Of a stretch of 20,705 nt of DNA, positions 2,714-20,654 are shown one piece after another. Position 1 is the stretch's first letter, and every line of letters starts with the position of its first letter. The DNA is from a virus, in IMG/VR virus record IMGVR_UViG_3300014886_000033, positions 1-20,705 of that record; one strand, written 5' to 3'. The notes under the pieces are model-generated. The model saw nothing but the letters and a program-made list of their open reading frames with translations. It did not search any database and was not told the DNA's origin. A program made the translations under genes and the position numbers.

Positions 2714-2731
2714 AATTCTACGAAAGATTTG

Positions 2732-2737
2732 AAGGAG
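2732..2737 (+). promoter_or_regulatory. Ribosome binding site of the capsid gene
   Basis: AAGGAG lies six bases before ATG 2744. It selects this ATG over an upstream TTG (2729) in the same frame. Confidence 0.7.
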
Positions 2738-2743
2738 AAAGAA

Positions 2744-3589
2744 ATGGGTGAATTAGCTGATAGGTTAAAAGAATACGTCGCTAAGGTGCAGACCCACGAA
2801 CTCAGTGCGTCTGATGATATACGACGACTAACGCAGAAAGCCTATTACAATGCCGTTGTAGCTGGAGCTAAACAAAGAGAATTCATGAGGAAGATATTAC
2901 CTGTTGTCAAAACAAGTTCGCATAGAGTGAGAGTATTCACGTCTGACGCAAATGGATACGCTTCAAAAGGAGCTTATAAAGGAGAAGTTCCCATTTTCCA
3001 TCCTAAATACACAAGCATTGACGCGGTTACCGAAAAGGCTTGGACTTTACCTCTTGCTCCAAAAGAATTAGTTGAGGATGCAGAGTTCGGTTTGATTGAA
3101 AATGAGGTTTCTCTCGCTGGTATGAGATTAGAGAATACTTTGAATCGAGATGCAATTTCCACTTTGATTGACAATGCAGGACACTCGGAAACGTGTGATG
3201 GTGCTTCTCCATTGACAGCGATTCAAAATGCATGTGTGAACGTTTCGGATTCTCAGTTTACCCCAACTTATATGATCACCAATTTAAAATTCCTCTTTAC
3301 TGCGTTTTCAATAACTCAAACTCCTTTCATGACAGAGGGTGGCTCACTCAACATTAGATATATTTCAATTACTTCAAATGGAGACAACAATTGGGGATGG
3401 GAAAACGCAGGAGATGTTGGAGCAGTGGTGTTAGATGCCGAAATGGCAGCATTGATCCTCATGAAAGAGGACATAACCGTGAAAAAATATTCTGATCCTC
3501 TTAATGATTTGCGTGGCGCAATAGTAGAAATGAAATACAAAGTTGTAGTAAGAAAACCTAAAGCTATTTGTATAATTAAACATGATTAG
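2744..3589 (+). CDS. Major capsid protein (HK97 fold)
   Basis: A 281-aa protein placed right after the protease, the standard position for the major capsid protein. Visible traits are a charged helical N-terminus (residues 1-50), a loop with FTSDANGYASKGAYKGEVP typical of the E-loop region, and a spine-helix-like segment (ELVEDAEFGLIENEVSLAGMR). An alpha/beta P-domain end with LRGAIVEMKYKVVVRKP closes the protein and is characteristic of this fold. Its C-terminus is IIKHD. The N-terminal arm is short, so any cleaved delta domain would be small. Start ATG 2744 is supported by its SD. The identity is inferred from position and pattern, not from close sequence identity. Confidence 0.85.
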   Translation: MGELADRLKEYVAKVQTHELSASDDIRRLTQKAYYNAVVAGAKQREFMRKILPVVKTSSHRVRVFTSDANGYASKGAYKGEVPIFHPKYTSIDAVTEKAWTLPLAPKELVEDAEFGLIENEVSLAGMRLENTLNRDAISTLIDNAGHSETCDGASPLTAIQNACVNVSDSQFTPTYMITNLKFLFTAFSITQTPFMTEGGSLNIRYISITSNGDNNWGWENAGDVGAVVLDAEMAALILMKEDITVKKYSDPLNDLRGAIVEMKYKVVVRKPKAICIIKHD

Positions 3590-4277: not shown

Positions 4278-5273
4278 ATGAATAATTCTTTTCTTTTTAT
4301 TTTTAATTTAGGAGCAGTTCCTTCTCCTTGGGATAGAAGAGACGTCATTTATGCGGCTCTTACTTCAAAGGAGAAACCTAAAGTATTTAGTCTTAAGAAA
4401 TATCAAGGACCTGTGGTGAATCAAGGCTCTCGACAGATATGCGTTCCTTGTGCATTGTGTGCAATTGTGGAATCGAGACAATTTTACGATACAGATTTAT
4501 CCGAATGTTACATTTATAAACGCCGTTCTTACAAAGGAGACGGCATGGTTCTTAGAAACGCTCTCAAGATAATGCAAAAAGAAGGAACATGTCAAGAAAT
4601 GTGCTTTCCTTTGTCGACGTGTCAAGAACGATGCAGTGAGAGTTCAATTAAAAAGAACGCTCTGTCCTATAGGATAGGAGAGTATCACAGAATATTCAAT
4701 GACATTACCGGTACGATGTATACTCATAAGCTACCAGTATTTGCAGCCGTTCCTGTGTATGATAATTGGTCCTATGATGCTCGTATACCAATGCCATCTG
4801 GAAAATTCTTAGGATATCACGCCATTACCATTGTTGGATATAACCTTAAAGATAAATATTATGAATTTAAGAATTCTTGGGGAACAGAATGGGGAAATGG
4901 GGGATACGGGGAGTTGCCTTTAAACTATCCGATAGTCGAAGCATGGATAGTTGAGCCAAGACTTGGGAATAATCACGATGATTTACTTCCTGACGACATA
5001 ACAATTAAAAATACAATATGTGGCATGTCCATATTTGGGCTTGGTATCGAACTCGATATTACTGTTCCTTGGGACTGTACTGTAAGACCCGACTTTGGGA
5101 TATTCCGATTTCCACGCTTGCTTCATAAAGGCACGAACTCAGTAATGTTTAGAGTTTCATTTAAGAAAGGTTCACAACCACTAAGTTTAACCTTTAAGCG
5201 TAAGAATTCTTATATTAGAATGTCTGCTACTCTTTCTAATACCATTCGATTGAGTGAGTGGGAAAGAATTTAA
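4278..5273 (+). CDS. Papain-like (C1A) cysteine protease
   Basis: A 331-aa protein whose residues about 15-228 form a papain-like peptidase. The oxyanion glutamine Q49 and nucleophile C55 sit six residues apart, as in papain (NQGSRQIC). The catalytic histidine is H181 (GYHAITIVGYN) and the asparagine N199 (FKNSWGTEWGNGGYGELP). The lead sequence AVPSPWDRRDVIY is typical of prokaryotic members. Residues about 230-331 form a beta-rich C-terminal domain that is not recognised. No clear signal peptide is present, although residues 3-11 are hydrophobic. Possible roles are virion-associated digestion of a protein cell wall or S-layer, maturation cleavage of virion proteins, or action on host targets. 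The protease call is firm; its role is open. Confidence 0.88.
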   Translation: MNNSFLFIFNLGAVPSPWDRRDVIYAALTSKEKPKVFSLKKYQGPVVNQGSRQICVPCALCAIVESRQFYDTDLSECYIYKRRSYKGDGMVLRNALKIMQKEGTCQEMCFPLSTCQERCSESSIKKNALSYRIGEYHRIFNDITGTMYTHKLPVFAAVPVYDNWSYDARIPMPSGKFLGYHAITIVGYNLKDKYYEFKNSWGTEWGNGGYGELPLNYPIVEAWIVEPRLGNNHDDLLPDDITIKNTICGMSIFGLGIELDITVPWDCTVRPDFGIFRFPRLLHKGTNSVMFRVSFKKGSQPLSLTFKRKNSYIRMSATLSNTIRLSEWERI

Positions 5274-5279
5274 GTTAGA

Positions 5280-7694
5280 ATGAGCTTGCGAGTAACATTT
5301 CTCGGAGTAAATGCAGAAGCAAAGGGACATTCTTGTATATTGATTGAGTCCTCTAAAGCGAAAGTTCTTTTAGAACCCACTCAGCGAGTCAGGGATATAG
5401 ATGCTGTTATAATTACGGATATAGATAGAGATGAATATAGCGAATGGAAATATTATGCAGACCAAGGTGTTCCGATGTATTCGGTAGCAGCAATAAAGAG
5501 ATGGGCAAAAGATGACGAGCTTCGTGAGCACATTCAAGTGATAAGCAACAAGTTCTCAATTAAAGGTCTCCACATGAATTGGCTAAAAGCTAATGTCGCT
5601 CCTCACGAGCCAGCAGGTGGGATTAGAATTCCAAGTTATGATGTTGATATTATTCCCGAACTCCCACCTTACATTCCCCAAGCAGTTATAAAAGCATTTG
5701 GTTTACCACCCTCTCACATTATAGTTGGAATAGGCTCTTACAAAAAATCGGATCACAAAATATCATTTGAGGATTTCCTTTTACAGCTTGAGAAAACACG
5801 AAGTGGAAAAGAGAAAGGTCTTTTGTCTATTACTCTCACAAATTTCAGGAAAGATTTAAAAGAACACAAAAGTGAAGTCCTTAGAAGATTGAAAGAACGG
5901 TGGGATATACCCATCTTTTGGGCAGAAAAGGATATGACACTTGAATTCTCTAAAAGCGGACAGGTTGAACGAATAAATGGAACTTCTAGTGAATTAGAAA
6001 AGCTTCACCTCAAAGAATTCCTTTCCAAAGGAGTGGATTATGACATTAAACATGTTAAGACAAGGTGGAAAGAATGCATTGCGGATTTGCGATATTTAGC
6101 AAATAGTGCCGTTCCTCGTTTGAAGGCGGGAAAGAAGTGGGGTGAGTGGACACTTGATATGTGCTATAAATATTTTGCTGCTTTGGTGGATGCTCTTCGT
6201 GGTATATATTTTGCACTCGTTCCTCCCACTCAACCTGAGCTATACAAAATAGAGCATCCTAATAAAGATCCTAAGGAAGCACTTAAGACTTCTTTCTGGC
6301 AGACATATTTAAAAGCCAAGAAATACATGAAGTCCAAACCTCCCAAAGACGAAGAAGAATTAAAAGAATGGAATAAGAAGCGAGCAAAACTAATAAGTAC
6401 ATCTGAAGAAACGAAGAGCCTTAAAGTTGGATACCTTTCCAAGGCTAAACCCTACTTACGATTCTTCCTCCCTACTATTCACGAAGATATTGTGAGTGCT
6501 GGATGGGATGAAAAGAAGCTCCTTATCGATGTTAAAGCCGATGGTCTGAGAATCACTCTTTGGAAGTCAGGCGGTAAGGGGTATGTATTTGTAGATCCAG
6601 AAGAACTCAAACAAAAGTCCCCACTAATAAACAAATACGTTCCTCAGATAGCAAAAGAAATTGAGGAGCACTTTCCTGACAACACAGCTCTTGATGGGGA
6701 ACTTTATGCAGCAAAAGGCAATAAAGCTCTACACAGGACTGTCATAAATGGAATTATAAATACTAAACTTCCTCCCGAAAGATTCATACCTTATACTTAT
6801 GCCCTTGCTTTTGACGTCCTTATATACAAAGGCAAGGATGTGCGTGGTAATCCTCTTGAAGAGAGACTGAAGTTGCTTCGTGCCTTCAAATCCACGTCTC
6901 ATATCAAAATAGAAAGAGTATCTAATGTAGTCGTTCCCGGTTACTCTGGATATATAGTCAACGGGAGTAATAAAAACGCAGTAGATAAGGCTATTCATTT
7001 GATAGAAAGGTCAAAACATAATTTGCACGAGGGTGTACAAGAAGGCATAATGGTCAAAACATTAGATCATCCATATCAAACACCCACGAACCACGGATGG
7101 GCAAAGTGTAAGCTGTGGCATGAAGTTGATACTGTGGTGCTGGATAAGAAATTGGTAAAGGGACAAACCGATGTATGGAATTATTATTTGGGTATCGAAA
7201 TACCAGCCGGATATGCTAAGATGATGCTTGATGACACTCAGGCGTATAAACGTGTTCGATGTTTGTATAATGGTCATCTTTATAAAAAGAAAGAGTGTCA
7301 AGATTATTTAGACAGACGAGGTGCTCGATTCTTTATGGAATATGGAAAGTCGGATAATACAAAAATTAAGTGTAGTGTTGGAGACGTTCTCAGAGTGTCC
7401 TCCGAAGAAGTCCTCTATAATGCAAATGAGACTCACCCAGAATATCCGTATTATACGGGATACATAAACAGAGCGATGGAGCCAGTACCAGAAAGAAAGA
7501 CCTCCGATAATTTAGTTGTATTGCACCGTCTTGCGTTACTCGAGCCTCAGCGGATACCATTAGAGGTCTTAGCAAAGTGGAAAGAAAATATGCCTCCAGA
7601 GATCAAGAAGTATTGTGAATATATTAGGTCTTTATCTACCCCGAAACTAATTCAATTTTATAATGCACTGAAGAAGGTTCAAAATGAAGAGTGA
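5280..7694 (+). CDS. Metallo-beta-lactamase-fold / ATP-dependent DNA ligase fusion
   Basis: An 804-aa fusion. Residues 1 to about 225 resemble the MBL nuclease fold: a VTFLG strand, GHSCILIES at 16-24, then III-TDIDRDE at 44-52 where a metal-binding HxHxDH is expected, and a late LLSITLTNF strand. All three expected histidines are replaced by Asp or Glu, so the metal site is altered or lost. Residues about 380-735 form an ATP-dependent DNA ligase. It has motif I KADGLR with the nucleotidyl lysine K419, DGELYA (472-477), FDVLIYKG (511-518), EGIMVK (588-593) and WAKCK (607-611), then an OB-fold-like part. Residues about 250-380 are helical and unassigned. The gene overlaps the phosphoesterase-like gene by 11 bases. 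A role in joining or repairing viral or host DNA ends is inferred. Confidence 0.9.
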   Translation: MSLRVTFLGVNAEAKGHSCILIESSKAKVLLEPTQRVRDIDAVIITDIDRDEYSEWKYYADQGVPMYSVAAIKRWAKDDELREHIQVISNKFSIKGLHMNWLKANVAPHEPAGGIRIPSYDVDIIPELPPYIPQAVIKAFGLPPSHIIVGIGSYKKSDHKISFEDFLLQLEKTRSGKEKGLLSITLTNFRKDLKEHKSEVLRRLKERWDIPIFWAEKDMTLEFSKSGQVERINGTSSELEKLHLKEFLSKGVDYDIKHVKTRWKECIADLRYLANSAVPRLKAGKKWGEWTLDMCYKYFAALVDALRGIYFALVPPTQPELYKIEHPNKDPKEALKTSFWQTYLKAKKYMKSKPPKDEEELKEWNKKRAKLISTSEETKSLKVGYLSKAKPYLRFFLPTIHEDIVSAGWDEKKLLIDVKADGLRITLWKSGGKGYVFVDPEELKQKSPLINKYVPQIAKEIEEHFPDNTALDGELYAAKGNKALHRTVINGIINTKLPPERFIPYTYALAFDVLIYKGKDVRGNPLEERLKLLRAFKSTSHIKIERVSNVVVPGYSGYIVNGSNKNAVDKAIHLIERSKHNLHEGVQEGIMVKTLDHPYQTPTNHGWAKCKLWHEVDTVVLDKKLVKGQTDVWNYYLGIEIPAGYAKMMLDDTQAYKRVRCLYNGHLYKKKECQDYLDRRGARFFMEYGKSDNTKIKCSVGDVLRVSSEEVLYNANETHPEYPYYTGYINRAMEPVPERKTSDNLVVLHRLALLEPQRIPLEVLAKWKENMPPEIKKYCEYIRSLSTPKLIQFYNALKKVQNEE

Positions 7695-9729
7695 ACTTTT
7701 AAACACTCAGAATGTAAATACCTTACTTGAACTGGTAGAGTCAGAACTCAATTATAGACATGCGAAGGGATTGCATATTCCAAATAGAGGAATGTACCTC
7801 CCATCGCCACACGCTAAGCTTATTCACGATTGTCATAAGACAGTAATCCTCAAGGATAGGAAATTTAAGATAGCAGGTGTCCCATTCCTATACTGTGACA
7901 ACAAATATGCTTATGGTGTGTTAGAACTCAAGGAGCCAAAAGAAATTGAGACAGGAGGGCAATTTAAGGCTCTCCAGAAATATCACAGAGTAACCAAGAA
8001 AGAGTTTGAAAATTGGAATTGGTCACTTCCCCTTTACGCTTATTACATTAAAGAAGTCCACAATTTTAAGAAGCCTGTAAGAATTAACCTTCCTCAAGGC
8101 GTACAAAACTTTATTAAGAATCCAGTTCAATATTTAGAAGATAGCGAGTATCCATTTACTGGCAAGCATGAATTATCTCTTCCCCTACAAATAAACTGTC
8201 CTAATTGTGGAAGATGGATATACGTTCCACATTCTCCGATTCCGTCTGATTGTCCTTATTGTGGTTATCAGTTGAAAGAGCGAGAAGAAGAAAAATCACG
8301 AATGGTTCCTCTCCCAAAAGAAGAATACTCTCGAATAGTTAAGGATTATCCTCTCAAACCTTTACCTAAGAAATATTATAAAGACCAGAGAGGAGGAGTG
8401 GCTTGGTGTTTTGCCTCTCCCCGAACAAAAGTCCTTACGGAAGGCGGATGGAAACCTTGGAATAAGATTTATCCGGGCGAGAAAGTCCTGACTCATAAGG
8501 GTAGGTTCATGCGAGTCACACGAAAGGATGTGTTTGAAGGCATTTATGATTGGATTAAAGTTCATCTTCAGTGTGATAATATAAAGGACCTTAAATACGA
8601 TATTCGAGTGACTGAAAATCACCCCTTTCTCACAACAGAAGGTTGGAGGGAGGCAAAAGACCTAAAGGTTGGCGACAAGATTATCTCAAAAACACCTAAG
8701 CGTTGTCTTAATTGTCGTGTTCCGATTCCTCTTTCATGGAATGCGAAGACAGATTTTATGTTTTGTAGTGATGATTGTGCACGAAACTATGAATGGACAG
8801 AAGAGAGTTTACACACTGAATACATTGATAAACAAATTTATGATAATCCTCTTGTTGATGTCACAGTCACAGTTGTGAAAATAGAAAGAATTAAGATTCC
8901 AAAAGACTCTACTGTGTGGACACAGACTCATGCTTGTTCTTTAGAGGTAGAGGAAGACCATTCGTACATGACTCCTTTGGGATTCTCTCACAACTCACAA
9001 TGGCACATTAGAGGCATTGAACCAGAAGACAAAGAGGCATTTGATAAAGGCAAGATATCATTTGAGGAAATGATACTACATCACAGTTTGCATCAAGATT
9101 TAAGATGGAAGCTTGATGGTGTTTCAACTCTCCCACAATGCACTATAACAGAAAGTGATATGCAGTCTTATGTGAGAGGAATGTTAGGACAACTCAACCC
9201 TGAGCAAAAGGGTCCAGCTAATGTTCAGAAGGTTAAAGTTATTCCTAAAGTTGAGATTGCTAAACCTACAATGCCAAAGTCCAAAATAAAGGAATTCCTT
9301 ATAGACAAGGAAGGAGCTAAGCTTATCAATAAGATTATAATTCACGAAACTTCTTTCTTCATTTCTCCTGGGGAAGTTGGGAGCTTGCCGTACACTTGGG
9401 CTTATTTGGGAACAATTTGGACAGGAAAGGTAGAGACGGGCGTTGAGAGAGGAGATTATCATGAGCTCTTCTTTTATTCTGATAAAGATTTACCTGAACC
9501 TAACAGAAAATTCTTTGACGGACGATTTATACTGAGGGCATTTAGAGGCGAAGCAGCACGAGGGGGAAAGACATGGTGGTTGTGGAAGTCTACCAAAAAT
9601 CCATATCCACAGAACCCTTGGTGTTATTGTGATCAAGGTGAGCATGAAGTTTTGCCTCTCGATGAGATTAAATACTGGGGTCATGAAGATTATCCTGAGT
9701 GGAAAACACGAAAAGATGAATGTGAATAA
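7684..9729 (+). CDS. ASCH-like / zinc ribbon / LigD-type 3'-phosphoesterase-like protein with intein
   Basis: The precursor is 681 aa; removing the intein (residues 242-437) leaves 485 aa. Residues about 30-150 resemble an ASCH/PUA-like fold (GVPFLYCDNKYAYGVLEL, then PLYAYYIKEV). Residues 172-193 are a zinc ribbon (CPNC and CPYC). After splicing, QWHIRG and, after an insertion of about 25 residues, SLHQDLR would supply the H-x(n)-HxDxR signature of the 3'-phosphoesterase domain of bacterial LigD. Here these are H441, H470, D472 and R474. Later blocks (ISPGEVGS, GVERGDYHELFF, RFILRAFRG, KTWWLWKS) also fit that fold. Known family members remove 3'-phosphate or ribonucleotide ends before ligation. 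The ATG at 7684 follows AAGG and overlaps the ligase stop. The phosphoesterase call is moderate to good; the ASCH call is weaker. Confidence 0.78.
   Translation: MKSELLNTQNVNTLLELVESELNYRHAKGLHIPNRGMYLPSPHAKLIHDCHKTVILKDRKFKIAGVPFLYCDNKYAYGVLELKEPKEIETGGQFKALQKYHRVTKKEFENWNWSLPLYAYYIKEVHNFKKPVRINLPQGVQNFIKNPVQYLEDSEYPFTGKHELSLPLQINCPNCGRWIYVPHSPIPSDCPYCGYQLKEREEEKSRMVPLPKEEYSRIVKDYPLKPLPKKYYKDQRGGVAWCFASPRTKVLTEGGWKPWNKIYPGEKVLTHKGRFMRVTRKDVFEGIYDWIKVHLQCDNIKDLKYDIRVTENHPFLTTEGWREAKDLKVGDKIISKTPKRCLNCRVPIPLSWNAKTDFMFCSDDCARNYEWTEESLHTEYIDKQIYDNPLVDVTVTVVKIERIKIPKDSTVWTQTHACSLEVEEDHSYMTPLGFSHNSQWHIRGIEPEDKEAFDKGKISFEEMILHHSLHQDLRWKLDGVSTLPQCTITESDMQSYVRGMLGQLNPEQKGPANVQKVKVIPKVEIAKPTMPKSKIKEFLIDKEGAKLINKIIIHETSFFISPGEVGSLPYTWAYLGTIWTGKVETGVERGDYHELFFYSDKDLPEPNRKFFDGRFILRAFRGEAARGGKTWWLWKSTKNPYPQNPWCYCDQGEHEVLPLDEIKYWGHEDYPEWKTRKDECE
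8407..8994 (+). mobile_element. Intein (mini, Hint fold, zinc-finger-like insertion)
   Basis: A 196-aa in-frame protein-splicing element. It begins with Cys (TGT at 8407; CFASPRTKVLTEGGW, block A) and carries block B TENHPFLTTEGW. It ends with block F (LEVEEDHSYMTPLGF) and block G His-Asn (AAC at 8992-8994), followed by Ser as the +1 extein nucleophile. All splicing residues are present, so it should be active. It is too short for a LAGLIDADG endonuclease. Between blocks B and F it carries a CxxC...CxxxC module (CLNC and CSDDC) that looks like a zinc finger or a remnant of an HNH-type insert. It sits three residues before the first presumed active-site His of the host domain. Confidence 0.92.
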
Positions 9730-15393: not shown

Positions 15394-16176
15394 ATGCAAT
15401 TTTCAATAATAGTTGCAACAAATCGTGGACCCGAACTTCTAAAATATCTATTTGTTTCTGCACATCCGGAGAGTGAACTCATAATAGTTGACTCTCACTA
15501 TAATGAAAAAACAAAAGATTTCCTCTCTCGTCAAGAGGGGTACAGACAAATAGTCTACTCTCCACCTGAGCATTCACCCTTTAAGTGGCATAGAGACTTT
15601 TCTCAGTCCCTCAATACAGCACTGTGTTTTGCTGAGCACGAATATATTGTACGTGCAGATGATTACATAGAATTTAAGGAGGACTTTTTTGACGTTGCAG
15701 AGATGGATATCAAGAGTTATCCTCAAAAGACTCTTATAATAGGACAGAAAGCACAAGAATACAACAAGGAAGAGAAATTCATTGATTACATGTCACAAAA
15801 AGGGATAGGTGGAGAATTTAGGTATGTAAACATTGAGAACCCAGCATTCACATTCTCCTTTGGAGTAGCACCACTTCAGTTATACCTTGACCTTAATGGT
15901 TATGATGAAAGGTACGATTCTGGTTGGGGTTTTGAAGACAGAGACTTTCTTCATAGAGCACTAAAAGCTGGCTACGTTGCAATGCTTGACAAGCTTCTTA
16001 TGGGATATGGTCATGCTCATAAGCCAGCTTGGGAGACAATTTCAATGCCTCATATAATTTATGAGGTAACAAAGACAGAAATAGAGAGTGGCAAAGTTTG
16101 GGCTTATAATCCTTATAAACTCAAGGACAGACGGGAACAGAAACTGCAGGAGAAAGAAAAATGGATAGTAAGATAA
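15394..16176 (+). CDS. Glycosyltransferase, GT-A fold (family 2-like)
   Basis: A 260-aa enzyme expected to transfer a sugar from a nucleotide-sugar donor. The N-terminus has the Rossmann-type start FSIIVATNRGPELLKYLF. An acidic metal/donor motif RADD occurs at 87-90, and the acceptor-side block GYDERYDSGWGFEDRDFLHRAL (about 169-190) is typical of GT2 enzymes (GWGxED). There is no membrane segment, so it is probably cytosolic. Its 3' end overlaps the radical SAM gene by 16 bases. Together with the second glycosyltransferase it suggests modification of virion fibres, host surface glycans or DNA; the target cannot be read from sequence. Confidence 0.85.
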   Translation: MQFSIIVATNRGPELLKYLFVSAHPESELIIVDSHYNEKTKDFLSRQEGYRQIVYSPPEHSPFKWHRDFSQSLNTALCFAEHEYIVRADDYIEFKEDFFDVAEMDIKSYPQKTLIIGQKAQEYNKEEKFIDYMSQKGIGGEFRYVNIENPAFTFSFGVAPLQLYLDLNGYDERYDSGWGFEDRDFLHRALKAGYVAMLDKLLMGYGHAHKPAWETISMPHIIYEVTKTEIESGKVWAYNPYKLKDRREQKLQEKEKWIVR

Positions 16177-17099
16177 ACATGATTCAGATACAGACCACGA
16201 GTATTTGTTCCGGGAGGTGTATCATTTGTCCTTACAAAGACAGTTGGCTACGAAAGGCTCATGGCTATATGAGTGATGAAGATTACGTTCACGTCTTAGA
16301 GGAGGTCAAGTCCTGTCTTGGTGATTACAAAGAAAAGCTTCCACTTTATTTGATGAACGATCCATTTGCAGACAAGAAAATAATTGAGCGAATGGAGTTA
16401 GCTTATCAGTATTTTCCTAAATGCAAATTAGAGTTGTCCACCAATGGTCTACTCCTCACAGAAAAACTATCCAAGAGAATAGTGGAAACTGTGACTCATT
16501 ATAATGGTGAGGATACGTTTGAACTTTGGATTTCTTTTCATGGAGCAAGTAAGAAAACATGGGAGTTCCTCAACAATTTACCCGGTAAATTTGAAAGAGT
16601 CCTCAAGAGCATCGTTACATATCTCAAGATAAACAATGGTCAGCTTAGAACAGTCATTAACTCAGCGGGAGGAGCGTCTCGTGATGGTTCTATGTTCTTT
16701 TATTCCCAGAGTGCTTGGAAACATTTCCTAAACTCTATATTTCAAACTTATAATCTTCCATTAGAGAACGTTCATCTTCGATACTATACCTTTCATAACA
16801 GAGCTGGAAACGTAAGGCTGTGCAATTGGGATGGAACAGAGTACTATCGAGAAATAGGTCCCGAGTATCCCTTTGATTGTTGGCGATTTAGGAGTGGCAT
16901 TCACATTCTTTACAATTTAGACGTGATAGCCTGTTGCATGGATTGGAACAGAGAAACAGTCTTTGGAAATCTCAAAACCCAAACTCTAAAGGAAATATGG
17001 GAGGGTGAGAAACGACGTACCTTTGTTGATATGGCATCGGGTAGAAAACCCTCTCCTAAAGACTTTATATGTAAGAGGTGCATGTCGCCAGGCGGGTGA
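16161..17099 (+). CDS. Radical SAM enzyme with SPASM-like C-terminus
   Basis: A 312-aa protein. CSGRCIIC (C16, C20, C23) is the CxxxCxxC cluster-binding motif of radical SAM enzymes. NDPFADKK and STNGLLL fit the following strand motifs of the barrel. The C-terminal part has a Cys series (DCWRF, ACCMDW, CKRC) and the phrase FGNLKTQTLKEIWEG. Both are typical of SPASM/Twitch auxiliary-cluster domains, which act on peptides, proteins or sugars. ATG 16161 follows AGGAG and overlaps the upstream glycosyltransferase. Lying between two glycosyltransferases, it may modify a sugar or a glycosylated protein. The family is firm; the substrate is unknown. Confidence 0.9.
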   Translation: MDSKINMIQIQTTSICSGRCIICPYKDSWLRKAHGYMSDEDYVHVLEEVKSCLGDYKEKLPLYLMNDPFADKKIIERMELAYQYFPKCKLELSTNGLLLTEKLSKRIVETVTHYNGEDTFELWISFHGASKKTWEFLNNLPGKFERVLKSIVTYLKINNGQLRTVINSAGGASRDGSMFFYSQSAWKHFLNSIFQTYNLPLENVHLRYYTFHNRAGNVRLCNWDGTEYYREIGPEYPFDCWRFRSGIHILYNLDVIACCMDWNRETVFGNLKTQTLKEIWEGEKRRTFVDMASGRKPSPKDFICKRCMSPGG

Positions 17100-17100
17100 G
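17094..17100 (+). promoter_or_regulatory. Ribosome binding site overlapping the radical SAM stop
   Basis: GGGTGAG contains the TGA stop of the upstream gene and lies four bases before ATG 17105. It selects that start over the in-frame ATG 17078. Confidence 0.65.
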
Positions 17101-17104
17101 TATT

Positions 17105-18007
17105 ATGGATAACGTAACAGCGATTGTGAAAACCTTTATGCGCCCTGAAAAATTCGAGTTTTGTTTGAGAAGCTTAGTGTCTGCCGGACTTAAGAAAATA
17201 ATTGTTTCTTTTGATGGTCCTGAAGAGTACCTCGAAAGGCATAGAAGAGTAATAGGCAAGTATCAAAGAAACGTGACTATTCGTTTCTTAGAACTTCCGT
17301 TTAATGTAGGACTCGCAGCCGCAAGGAACAGAATGATAGAGAGAGTGAACACAGATTTCGTCTTGATGATCGACGATGATAATTACGTTCCTCTTCAAGT
17401 CTTAGAGATGGTACATGGACTTTTACAGCTCCCCGAAGATGTGGGAGGAGTAGCTATGGGATGGCTGCCAGCTTTTAACCCTCTTCCACAGATGGATGCT
17501 TGGGACTTCGAGATTGTAAATAAAATACTCTTCAAGACGTGGCGAAGTGATAAACAACGTGCGATTATTAATGGTAATGCTTATATGTTTCCTTTTGATT
17601 TTATTCCTAATCAAGTTCTCTTCAGACGAAAGCTCTTTAATGATGTGCAGTGGGATGAACATTATATCATAAGCAGAGAGCATGAGGATTTCTATCTAAC
17701 ATGCAAGAAAGAAACAGATTGGAAGTTTGGGATATGTACGTCCATTTACTCCGTACATGACCCAGGTGGGAACAAAGAGTACATACGTGAGTATCGAGCA
17801 GGAAAGGAATGTGATAAATCTGCTGAATATTTCCTCAAGAAGTGGAACTTAAAAGGCATTGCTCCTCAAAGATATAGCGATGATTATACTTCTTTGTTTT
17901 ATGACGCTCCTTGGCAAGTAAGACGAAACCTCGATAAGAATAGATATATAAGATGGAAGTTGGAGACGAATCGAGCTTTGCCTGATGATGTCTTCCAAAC
18001 TCGTTAG
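17105..18007 (+). CDS. Glycosyltransferase family 2-like, GT-A fold
   Basis: A 300-aa protein. VTAIVKTFMRPEKFEFCLRS is the usual GT2 opening; NVGLAAARN (67-75) and the donor/metal motif MIDDDNYV (DDD at 90-92) follow. EHEDF (about residue 200) matches the ED base motif on the acceptor side. There is no membrane anchor. The start at ATG 17105 rests on the SD; the upstream ATG at 17078 would add nine residues read from the tail of the radical SAM gene. It differs clearly from the glycosyltransferase at 15394, so the two are not a recent duplication and probably add different sugars or act in sequence. Confidence 0.87.
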   Translation: MDNVTAIVKTFMRPEKFEFCLRSLVSAGLKKIIVSFDGPEEYLERHRRVIGKYQRNVTIRFLELPFNVGLAAARNRMIERVNTDFVLMIDDDNYVPLQVLEMVHGLLQLPEDVGGVAMGWLPAFNPLPQMDAWDFEIVNKILFKTWRSDKQRAIINGNAYMFPFDFIPNQVLFRRKLFNDVQWDEHYIISREHEDFYLTCKKETDWKFGICTSIYSVHDPGGNKEYIREYRAGKECDKSAEYFLKKWNLKGIAPQRYSDDYTSLFYDAPWQVRRNLDKNRYIRWKLETNRALPDDVFQTR

Positions 18008-18696: not shown

Positions 18697-18962
18697 ACGA
18701 AGGATTAATTCGCAGTTGGACTAAATCCTTTACTTGGCGAGTATTAGGAATACTATTGTTGCTTTGTTTTTCGTATCTCTTTACTCATGATGTTGAGACA
18801 GCAAGCATGATTGCCCTTCTCTTTCACGGAGTTCGAGTTCCCTTGTATTTCATACATGAACAGGCATGGGAGCGAGTGCGCCATATTAGTTATTTATACT
18901 TCTTTTTTGCTATGGTGTTGTTACTTACTTCCTTTATATTTGTTTGGAAGGTGGGAGCATGA
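18693..18962 (+). CDS. DUF2061-like small membrane protein
   Basis: An 89-aa protein. The opening RSWTKSFTWRVLGILLLLCFSYLFTHD followed by an A-M-I-A-L-L segment and YFIHEQAWERV fits the DUF2061 pattern (R-x-x-x-K-x-hxWR-hh ... hhxHExxW-x-R). Two to three membrane segments are visible (about 14-32, 36-55, 67-86); the last lies beyond the usual domain. DUF2061 has no proven function. In this window it is coupled by ATGA overlaps on both sides, with a sulfatase-superfamily gene before it and a CysD-like gene after it. That context suggests a role connected with sulfate or sulfo-group handling. Confidence 0.8.
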   Translation: MNEGLIRSWTKSFTWRVLGILLLLCFSYLFTHDVETASMIALLFHGVRVPLYFIHEQAWERVRHISYLYFFFAMVLLLTSFIFVWKVGA

Positions 18963-19741
18963 GTCATCTTGAAGAGAAAAGCATATACGTGATACGAGAG
19001 GCTTATAGTAAGTTTGATCGTATAGCTGCATTATGGAGTACTGGCAAGGACAGTACCGTATTGTTATGGCTTTGTCGAAAAGCCTTCTTTGACGAAACAC
19101 CCTTTCCAGTGATACACATAGACACGGGTTTTAAGTTTAGTGAAATGTACTCATTCAGAGATAGAATTGCAAGGGAATGGGAACTGGATTTGATAATAAC
19201 CAAGAACGAAGAGGCATTAAAGAGTGGAATGAATCCAAGGTGTGGAAGATTTAAGTGTTGTAATACACTAAAGACTGAAACACTTAAGAGGTGTATAAAG
19301 GAATATAAATTTGATGCCATTCTTTTGGGAATACGACGCGATGAGCATGGAGTAAGAAATAAAGAGAGGTTTTTCTCACCAAGAGATGCGAACTTTAATT
19401 GGGACATTTGGGAACAACCTCTTGAAGCTTGGGATATTTATACAATAGACGAGGAAGCTGATCACTACCGAGTTCATCCCATCTTACACTGGACTGAAAT
19501 TGACGTCTGGAGATATATCAAGAAGGAGGGATTGCCAGTTAATCCTCTTTATTTCGCCAAGGATCATAAGCGTTTTCGTTCTTTAGGTTGTAAGCCTTGT
19601 ACATCCCCTATCGATTCGGATGCTAAGACTATTGATGAAATTATCAAGGAAGTAGAGAATAGTAATACACGAGAACGATATGGTAGAGTCCAAGATAAAG
19701 AGAATTTAATGGAACGTCTACGTGTACTTGGTTACATGTAA
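18959..19741 (+). CDS. CysD/PAPS-reductase-family PP-loop enzyme
   Basis: A 260-aa protein matching ATP sulfurylase small subunit CysD along most of its length. Matches are LEEKSIYVIREAYSKFD, the PP-loop STGKDST (27-33), IHIDTGFKFSEMYSFRD, ILLGIRRDE, WTEIDVWRYI and FRSLGC near 206-211, then TIDEIIKEVENSNTRERYGR. It also has a Cys pair (C100, C101) and CKPC (C211, C214), the CC...CxxC arrangement that holds a [4Fe-4S] cluster in APS reductases; ordinary CysD lacks these. It could thus activate sulfate, reduce APS/PAPS, or use its PP-loop for another adenylylation. No CysN or CysC partner lies in the window. ATG 18959 follows AAGGTGG and overlaps the upstream stop. Confidence 0.85.
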   Translation: MSHLEEKSIYVIREAYSKFDRIAALWSTGKDSTVLLWLCRKAFFDETPFPVIHIDTGFKFSEMYSFRDRIAREWELDLIITKNEEALKSGMNPRCGRFKCCNTLKTETLKRCIKEYKFDAILLGIRRDEHGVRNKERFFSPRDANFNWDIWEQPLEAWDIYTIDEEADHYRVHPILHWTEIDVWRYIKKEGLPVNPLYFAKDHKRFRSLGCKPCTSPIDSDAKTIDEIIKEVENSNTRERYGRVQDKENLMERLRVLGYM

Positions 19742-19742
19742 A

Positions 19743-20654
19743 ATGTTAGATAAAGAAGAAATAAAAAAATTAACAAAGAAAGGTATGGAGAAGGCTTATC
19801 TCCCAGTGCCTTCTCATGGTGGGCTCAAGACAGCAAGGTTCACCTTAGAGGATGTTCAGCAATGCTTTAAGCAACCTGCTCTTCTCCGAGATCTTGTATA
19901 TTTGGTTGGAGGAGTAGCGGTTCACGGCAAGGGTAATGATGTGGACTTAGTAATACGTGGAGATGATTTATCAGAGCCTCAACGCGAAGCCCTATTGTTC
20001 CGTCTCTATCGAGCGTTTGGTGATTACTTCAATATTCCTTACGATATGACGCCCAAACATCTACACGTAACCTTTAACAATTATGGTCCTTTTACAGATC
20101 ACGTTCTCTTATATCACTTAGCAATTGTTCCTTCTGAAGACCGAAGTATCCACGAAATGGAAGCTATGAAGTCCGTGTCCTCCAATGGTGAATGGATAGT
20201 TTATGGTTATGGTTCAATAGACGCAATTGACCTCGAAGGTGATGAGATAACCATTGATGCTCTCAAAGGCATGTGGGAGGAAATGCAAAAGACCCCGAAG
20301 AAGTACTGGAATGTCATGAATGAACATGGTGGTGTACAAGTAGGAGAAATTCTCCCAGAGTGGAATGGGCTCAAAACTCATGTTGACGAAAAGGGGTTCT
20401 TTGTGATAGTGAAGCTCCGTAAGGATATAGACGCAGCACGAAGGATATGGGAAGCGATTCATTCTGACAATGAAGCAGAACGTATCAAGAGTTTCTCAAT
20501 TCATATTGAGTATCCTGGAGGTGTGCAAAATTGTACAGAAAAGGTCTGTGACAAAAACAGATGCTGGCGTAAGATAACCAAAGCAAGATTCCTTGAGTTG
20601 AGTTTCACAAGAAATCCTGCTAATCCGTTATGTATTTTTAAACCCGCGTTCTAA
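19743..20654 (+). CDS. Nucleotidyltransferase-like / prohead-protease-like fusion
   Basis: A 303-aa protein with two parts. Residues about 45-130 show the Pol-beta-type nucleotidyltransferase signature LVGGVAVHGKGNDVDLVI (GG at 56-57, DxD at 66-68). Residues about 150-303 resemble an XkdF/HK97-type prohead protease: WIVYGYGSIDAIDLEGDEIT, H195 (VMNEHGGVQVGEI), S252 (IKSFSIHI) and LELSFTRNPANP. A short Cys-rich insert (about 264-274) interrupts the latter. A separate prohead protease already lies at 2282, so this is a second, modified copy of the fold. ATG 19743 starts just after the upstream stop; GTG 19722 is an alternative. Third catalytic residues of both domains are not certain, so activity is unproven. 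Confidence 0.72.
   Translation: MLDKEEIKKLTKKGMEKAYLPVPSHGGLKTARFTLEDVQQCFKQPALLRDLVYLVGGVAVHGKGNDVDLVIRGDDLSEPQREALLFRLYRAFGDYFNIPYDMTPKHLHVTFNNYGPFTDHVLLYHLAIVPSEDRSIHEMEAMKSVSSNGEWIVYGYGSIDAIDLEGDEITIDALKGMWEEMQKTPKKYWNVMNEHGGVQVGEILPEWNGLKTHVDEKGFFVIVKLRKDIDAARRIWEAIHSDNEAERIKSFSIHIEYPGGVQNCTEKVCDKNRCWRKITKARFLELSFTRNPANPLCIFKPAF

Follow-up and report, generated by a model that had tools for sequence, protein, structure and literature searches.

The Ekchuahviridae, viruses of ANME-1 archaea, are described in the main text of the published account as encoding two major capsid proteins (MCPs), each with its own maturation protease (PMC9894754). Head proteins that are cleaved by the prohead protease and ejected are known from other tailed viruses, namely Alt of T4 and proteins of phiKZ and SPN3US (PMC5694885), and multidomain injected proteins have been proposed (PMC5512222).

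The window analyzed here is a whole stretch of 20,705 nucleotides of viral DNA (IMG/VR record IMGVR_UViG_3300014886_000033, positions 1 to 20,705). It encodes a protein in which a nucleotidyltransferase (NTase)-like domain precedes a prohead protease domain, in a genome that matches the two-protease layout. The window ends 51 bases after this open reading frame (ORF), and the second major capsid protein is therefore visible only in relatives. The features of the window are as follows.

2282-2713, + strand: first prohead protease, that of MCP-1 (position before MCP-1; weak PHROG match; published two-protease layout)
2729-3589, + strand: MCP-1, HK97-type major capsid protein (position; Pfam Phage_capsid E = 0.01, under the cut-off)
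5280-7694, + strand: ATP-dependent DNA ligase with a KADG motif (K419), of the same subfamily as the ligases of the kit described below (Pfam DNA_ligase_A_M E = 9.6e-13; LIG profile E = 3e-66 in an iterative search that included the query)
7684-9729, + strand: Zn-ribbon and LigD-type 3'-phosphoesterase (PE) protein whose PE motif is interrupted by a mini-intein (spliced protein against the PE profile, E = 2.7e-6; intein-type domain matches)
19743-20654, + strand: NTase-S78 fusion protein, 303 residues, predicted as the protease that matures MCP-2, the second major capsid protein (ORF, Pfam, gene order in relatives, profile match)
19830-20165, + strand: Pol-beta-type NTase-like domain, residues 30-141 (profile E = 3.4e-16; AF2 model matched by Foldseek to MNT nucleotidyltransferases)
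19908-19913, + strand: GG motif, residues 56-57 (G56 in 37/37 and G57 in 36/37 sequences)
19938-19946, + strand: DVD metal-binding motif, residues 66-68 (both Asp in 37/37 distinct NTase domains)
20115-20117, + strand: His125, in the column likely to be that of the third carboxylate (domain alignment)
20169-20174, + strand: Lys143-Ser144 at the domain junction, predicted self-cleavage site (conservation; Lys-Ser in Herelleviridae proteins)
20178-20642, + strand: Peptidase_S78 prohead protease domain, residues 146-300 (Pfam, PHROG, Herelleviridae alignment)
20325-20327, + strand: His195, predicted catalytic (conservation, Herelleviridae alignment)
20496-20498, + strand: Ser252, predicted catalytic, matching the GFSIE serine of the Herelleviridae proteases (conservation, alignment)

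The fusion ORF begins at ATG 19743, a start common to its relatives, with a possible GTG alternative at 19722. Full-length copies with 87-100% identity were found in 14 other viral contigs from several metagenomes. Between the two subclades (for example, the window versus the contig L012), the N-terminal half is 83% identical and the C-terminal half 94%. Wherever dN/dS could be computed, that is, where synonymous change was not saturated, it was <0.09 for the N-terminal and for the C-terminal half, which argues that both are kept by selection. An assembly chimera or a non-functional fusion was ruled out by the 14 further contigs together with the purifying selection on both halves. The preliminary description of this DNA had read a GG-x(8)-DVD motif in the first half and placed H195 and S252 in prohead-protease contexts in the second; G56, G57, D66, D68, H195, and S252 all lie at the numbered residues, and the four whose conservation it proposed to check (D66, D68, H195, and S252) are fixed in the relatives, H195 and S252 in all of them.

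The C-terminal half matched Pfam Peptidase_S78 with 22.2 bits against a cut-off of 21 (E = 1.7e-4), a marginal but consistent result, and the same family was matched by 12 of 12 full-length relatives, with a best E of 2.8e-5. It also matched a PHROG head maturation protease family (E = 1.5e-5) and was 27-28% identical, across the whole half, to four Herelleviridae maturation proteases, with which it has in common the pattern GEWxVxGYxSxxxxDLxGD, the FSI serine (S252), and an NPANP end. Compared by motif, S252 is the counterpart of the serine in GFSIE, and H195 that of the histidine in NYxH; at each of these sites the raw alignment is shifted by a few columns. In this half the AF2 model of the full-length protein was poor (pLDDT <50), and profile-profile comparison of the S78 half with XkdF, the first protease, and the proteases of contigs L028 and L039 gave nothing above noise because the alignments were shallow. 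Judged by sequence, the C-terminal half is a Peptidase_S78 prohead protease, in line with the preliminary description, and proteolytic activity is predicted for it.

A conventional protease had also been noted at 2282. It is present, directly 5' of the HK97-type capsid gene; its own profile matches are weak, and it is assigned from its position, from a pattern recognized in its sequence by eye, and from what has been published on such viruses. On the 3' side of the fusion gene, two near-identical, syntenic relatives, L003 (a contig of 80,678 bp) and L012 (71,922 bp), carry an 84-residue ORF and then genes for a scaffold-like protein (acidic, coiled-coil), a decoration-like protein, and MCP-2, a second capsid protein of the HK97 type. 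A tblastn search of 50,697 named phage records with MCP-2 returned no match. MCP-1 and both proteases are thus seen in the window and MCP-2 in the syntenic relatives, which match the published Ekchuahviridae in layout and synteny and which we call ekchuahvirus-like. Because that family has one protease per capsid protein, a second protease is expected, and we predict that the protease at 2282 belongs to MCP-1 and the fusion protease to MCP-2. The domain pair had been called unexpected: the fusion itself is real, and the presence of a second protease has an ordinary answer in the two-protease layout of these relatives.

Three further regions of the window may be recorded here. The gene at 18944-19741 belongs to the PAPS-reductase family, but in NCBIfam it is matched best by CysD, a subunit of sulfate adenylyltransferase (321.8 bits against a cut-off of 195), so that the name 'PAPS reductase' may be wrong. 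At 4278-5273, two genes after MCP-1, the head region encodes another protease, a cysteine protease of the papain family (E = 4.2e-13). Within the structural region, at 15394-18007, two glycosyltransferase-like genes surround a radical-SAM-like gene (assigned by eye), and this arrangement is conserved in L003 and L012.

Scans of the N-terminal half with Pfam and NCBIfam gave nothing significant (Pfam NTP_transf_2 reached only E = 0.09, in one member), and PDB sequence searches with the whole protein and with the NTase profile yielded nothing useful. The first lead was the N-terminus of the DNA ligase of the ANMV-1 virus (26% identity, pairwise E = 6e-9). When we built a profile, A4, from five ligase-associated NTases only, with no sequence of the window clade, it matched the window at 19839-20165 (E = 3.4e-16), as a single copy in the record; because the window domain is found by a profile that lacks its own clade, its homology to the ligase-associated domains is firm. 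The predicted structure of the domain (mean pLDDT 70, and 82-91 over most of the core) shows a strand-helix-strand core around the GG and DxD motifs. Its best fold matches in the PDB were MNT nucleotidyltransferases (7ae2: probability 1.00, E = 2.7e-3, TM ~0.4), followed by HI0073 and terminal transferase, with unrelated cis-CaaD folds intermixed at weaker scores. The Pol-beta motif hG[GS]-x(8-13)-Dx[DE] is matched by G56-G57, D66, and D68. The earlier suggestion of a Pol-beta-type NTase therefore gains from the homology to ligase-associated NTases and from the nearest solved folds, and we regard this half as a probable Pol-beta-type NTase-like domain, for which sequence and model give good though not conclusive support.

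Successive scans of viral contigs and prokaryote genomes identified the NTase domain in 28 contigs besides the window clade. A tblastn search of the 50,697 named phage records with the domain returned ANMV-1 only, and named phages thus lack the family almost entirely. Custom domain profiles found an ATP-dependent DNA ligase accompanying the NTase on 26 of the 28 contigs, the other two ending just downstream, and phosphoesterase-like domains wherever the contig extends far enough. This set, hereafter the kit, lies in the head module of other viral contigs. The best PDB sequence matches of the PE profile were the LigD-type phosphoesterases 3p43 (E = 1.8e-3) and 3p4h (E = 0.017), archaeal LigD-PE domains, and the motif H...H.D is fixed. 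Domain scans identified the ligase as the DNA type, and D12 DNA adenine methylases often occur in the same chain; together these suggest that the substrate is DNA rather than RNA. Ku (PF02735) was absent from the 19 records searched, several of which are possibly incomplete, and Pfam and NCBIfam scans of the kit proteins revealed no archaeo-eukaryotic primase-type polymerase domain.

In ten of these contigs (L030, L031, L032, L033, L036, L045, L046, L056, L058, and L059), the NTase and an XkdF prohead protease (PF14550) share a single polypeptide 1141-2052 residues long; the XkdF protease of L034, L049, and L055 is on a neighboring piece. In each such record that was searched in full, nothing but XkdF matched PF14550, and the polyprotein therefore appears to act as the maturation protease of the virus. 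The Guaymas-type contig L039 has the order terminase, portal, metallo-beta-lactamase-like protein, NTase-ligase-PE-PE, protease-scaffold, decoration protein, and MCP (several of these names assigned by eye).

The kit also takes other forms. Two complete giant MTase-NTase-PE-ligase polyproteins (L029 and L030) lie near opposite ends of the 105.8-kb contig JACPVI010000063.1, which was binned into a Myxococcales metagenome-assembled genome (MAG). Since the kit is absent from 146 related genomes of the MAG's class, and only this one contig of the MAG has it, the contig is probably phage. In L028 (6653-9346), two tandem NTase domains precede the ligase, and a companion protein has a region resembling Mu I protease by eye, with no Pfam match. 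L034 (6988-14873) holds an extended kit in which 2H-phosphoesterase-like, methylase-like, and TGT-like regions, all read by eye, stand beside the NTase, ligase, PE, and XkdF.

In the window virus the ligase and 3'-phosphoesterase domains of LigD are both present, on two separate genes that adjoin MCP-1, and the only NTase of the virus is the one fused to the MCP-2 protease. Copies of the ligase with 84-92% identity occur in the L003, L005, and L012 genomes, and the ligase and PE counterparts in L003 and L012 are 84-94% identical; the full-length relatives keep both genes and contain no other NTase copy. Because neither gene carries a protease fusion of its own, their entry into the virion is not implied directly. 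The N-terminal region of the ligase resembles, by eye only, a degenerate metallo-beta-lactamase fold. The mini-intein, also listed under L066 (G003:C1:37000-50436), comprises 196 residues (~8407-8994) at the phosphoesterase active-site motif; the PE gene of L012 has a longer frame (1029 residues), with an apparently larger intein, and because of that longer frame its match to the window gene comes in pieces.

The protease of HK97 cuts its capsid protein between Lys103 and Ser104. In the fusion protein, Lys143-Ser144 lies between the two halves in every full-length copy. In each of the four Herelleviridae proteases a Lys-Ser immediately precedes the core, in a position equivalent to K143-S144. 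The phages that encode these four closest proteases have scaffolds with 13 Lys-Ser pairs versus 2.7 expected, 11 versus 3.4, 7 versus 1.9, and 10 versus 3.3 (each P <0.002, 500 shuffles). The excess in ekchuahvirus scaffolds is modest, at 4 versus 1.1 (P = 0.02) and 3 versus 1.4 (P = 0.16), and Lys-Ser also arises by chance. From the conservation of the junction pair and the enrichment in Herelleviridae scaffolds and proteases, we infer that the protein cleaves itself at K143-S144. No dominant cleavage motif was found in the XkdF-type scaffolds. Tyr-Pro repeats (KYPYAKYPYA, YPYPYP) were observed in scaffold-like proteins encoded beside these proteases in L003 (7212-7829), L012 (7222-7803), L039 (7713-8765), L028 (9932-12877), L045, L049, and L058, and in the scaffolds of L045, L049, and L058 Tyr-Pro occurs at 14 to 21 times expectation.

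We propose that the fusion protein is the maturation protease of MCP-2 bearing the NTase of a virus-borne DNA-end repair kit, which would be carried in the head, release itself, and help in end repair on entry; we hold the case for this proposal to be evenly poised. Set beside the observed domain identities, gene context, homology, co-occurrence, and motif conservation, the course that we infer runs from prohead entry through cleavage and ejection to end repair. The NTase domain would occupy the place of the protease's short N-terminal pro-region, having been drawn from the head-module kit (NTase, ATP-dependent ligase, LigD-type 3'-phosphoesterase, and often a DNA adenine methylase) that appears to have been joined repeatedly to a prohead protease. 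The fusion would enter the prohead together with the scaffold and MCP-2, where the protease would cleave the scaffold, MCP-2, and itself at Lys143-Ser144; the freed NTase domain would remain in the head and enter the cell with the DNA, and NTase, ligase, and phosphoesterase could then help to repair the ends of the entering genome and to join them. Counting against a kit carried in the virion are the moderate fold match of the NTase (TM ~0.4), the poor model of the C-terminal half, and the absence of Ku from the 19 records searched. That the kit acts instead in the infected cell during replication or packaging, with the protease fusion ensuring no more than late co-expression, would accommodate the separate ligase and PE genes of the window virus, and encapsidation is not proved by a fusion alone; in the XkdF-type viruses, however, the one protease domain found, which has to enter the prohead, is covalently joined to the kit, and we consider action confined to the cell very improbable. 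Among the functions suggested in the preliminary description, processing in the prohead is best supported, by the conserved K143-S144 and by the recurrence of this NTase in fusions with prohead proteases elsewhere, whereas a toxin-like nucleotidyltransferase sits poorly with the domain's partners, a DNA ligase, a 3'-phosphoesterase, and a DNA methylase. The consistency of those partners across the family also speaks against an NTase that acts on protein or RNA, in the manner of the MNT antitoxins that AMPylate HEPN toxins, and regulates the protease or a target in the host following injection. Such antitoxins (7ae2, 7ae9) are indeed its nearest folds, but the nearest fold does not fix the substrate and no HEPN-like partner was present among the ORFs read; such a function seems improbable to us.

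Whether the NTase of the window clade is catalytic bears directly on its role. A third catalytic carboxylate would be expected on a later strand, at the column of residue 125, whose catalytic role is taken from its position and not from coordinates: this column holds Asp in 24 of 26 ligase-type domains and Asn in 2 of 26, while the carboxylate is absent from the window clade, where all 11 distinct protease-fused sequences have His125. In the NTase tree these sequences form one clade (100/100) on a long branch whose placement is not resolved. The histidine and the long branch make catalysis uncertain, and the domain may, from its sequence, be altered or dead as an enzyme while retaining its nucleotide- and metal-binding motif. 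It could accordingly be a structural pro-domain derived from an NTase, which would hold the protease in place at the scaffold or the portal core, or dock the separate ligase and PE to the prohead, and be clipped off on maturation. Besides His125 and the long branch, the faster evolution of this half (83% versus 94% identity between subclades) would suit such a role, and targeting or anchoring has been proposed for the long propeptides of giant-phage head proteins (PMC5694885). On the other side, both metal-binding Asp residues, the GG motif, R90, and T118 remain fixed, and strong selection suits a retained active or nucleotide-binding site. Some NTases, moreover, function with fewer acidic residues. 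We think a purely structural role unlikely, though it deserves serious consideration.

If the proposed delivery of the NTase in the head is correct, it would explain the second protease of the two-capsid-protein ANME-1 viruses and would give linear viral genomes whose ends are damaged or unusual a direct means of being restored as they enter the cell. That phages inject enzymes along with their DNA is established; no description was found of a capsid protease into which a full set of end-healing and ligating activities is built. Prohead proteases would then serve as packaging and release tags for enzymes, and a new family of DNA ligases, phosphoesterases, and NTases would be available for study. 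More tentatively, and with somewhat more doubt than confidence, we suggest that a LigD-like machine, delivered as part of the prohead protease and released by it, is present in the heads of many uncultivated tailed viruses, both archaeal and bacterial, and that it heals, protects, and circularizes the injected genome, the ekchuahviruses having a split version with the NTase on the MCP-2 protease.

Neither the NTase-protease fusion nor the NTase-ligase-PE-prohead protease family was found in the main texts of the papers searched, and the family appears to be undescribed. The two-protease arrangement is already known, and the NTase fusion is what is new to that literature. The closest viruses, the Ekchuahviridae (Methanophagales viruses GBV301 and GBV302; Laso-Perez et al. 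2023, PMC9894754), share two HK97-type MCPs with cognate proteases, a Guaymas-type source, and a PAPS reductase-type gene reported for ANME-1 viruses; the main text of that paper mentions no nucleotidyltransferase or ligase, so the fusion is not described there. The Herelleviridae S78 proteases (SPO1 gp3.2-like) share the GFSIE serine, the N-P-A-N-P motifs, and the Lys-Ser just before the protease core, and their genes stand in the order portal-protease-scaffold-MCP, of which protease-scaffold-MCP is found in the ekchuahvirus-like relatives; in contrast to the fusion, their N-terminal extension is ~20-30 residues long, and none of the four aligned has an NTase. Polyvalent proteins (Iyer et al. 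2017, PMC5512222) are likewise large enzymes of many domains whose genes lie with those of the virion and for which packaging and injection are predicted, but that survey found Pol-beta NTases in the conjugative-element versions only, the processing enzymes it names are zincin-like metallopeptidases, and neither 'DNA ligase' nor 'XkdF' appears in its text. RlaP, the RNA-ligase-associated Pol-beta NTase of jumbo phages (PMC7824862), which we compared by description only, also pairs such an NTase with a ligase to restore nucleic-acid ends; it acts in RNA repair and has no tie to a head module or protease. The 'ATP-dependent DNA ligase' of the ANMV-1 virus (AJP62006, in KP703175) has a homologous N-terminal NTase-like domain followed by ligase, PE, and a second PE-like domain, whereas it includes no protease, and the ANMV-1 prohead protease is of another type (DUF2213). 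Bacterial LigD and the archaeal NHEJ enzymes combine a ligase, a 3'-phosphoesterase, and a nucleotide-adding domain (PMC8656161), and the PE match extends this likeness to sequence; the kit differs from LigD in having a Pol-beta-type NTase instead of the archaeo-eukaryotic primase polymerase, in the absence of Ku from the records searched, and in its linkage to capsid proteases. LigD is thus the functional model for the kit, which is not itself a LigD, since its nucleotide-adding domain belongs to another superfamily and no Ku was found with it.
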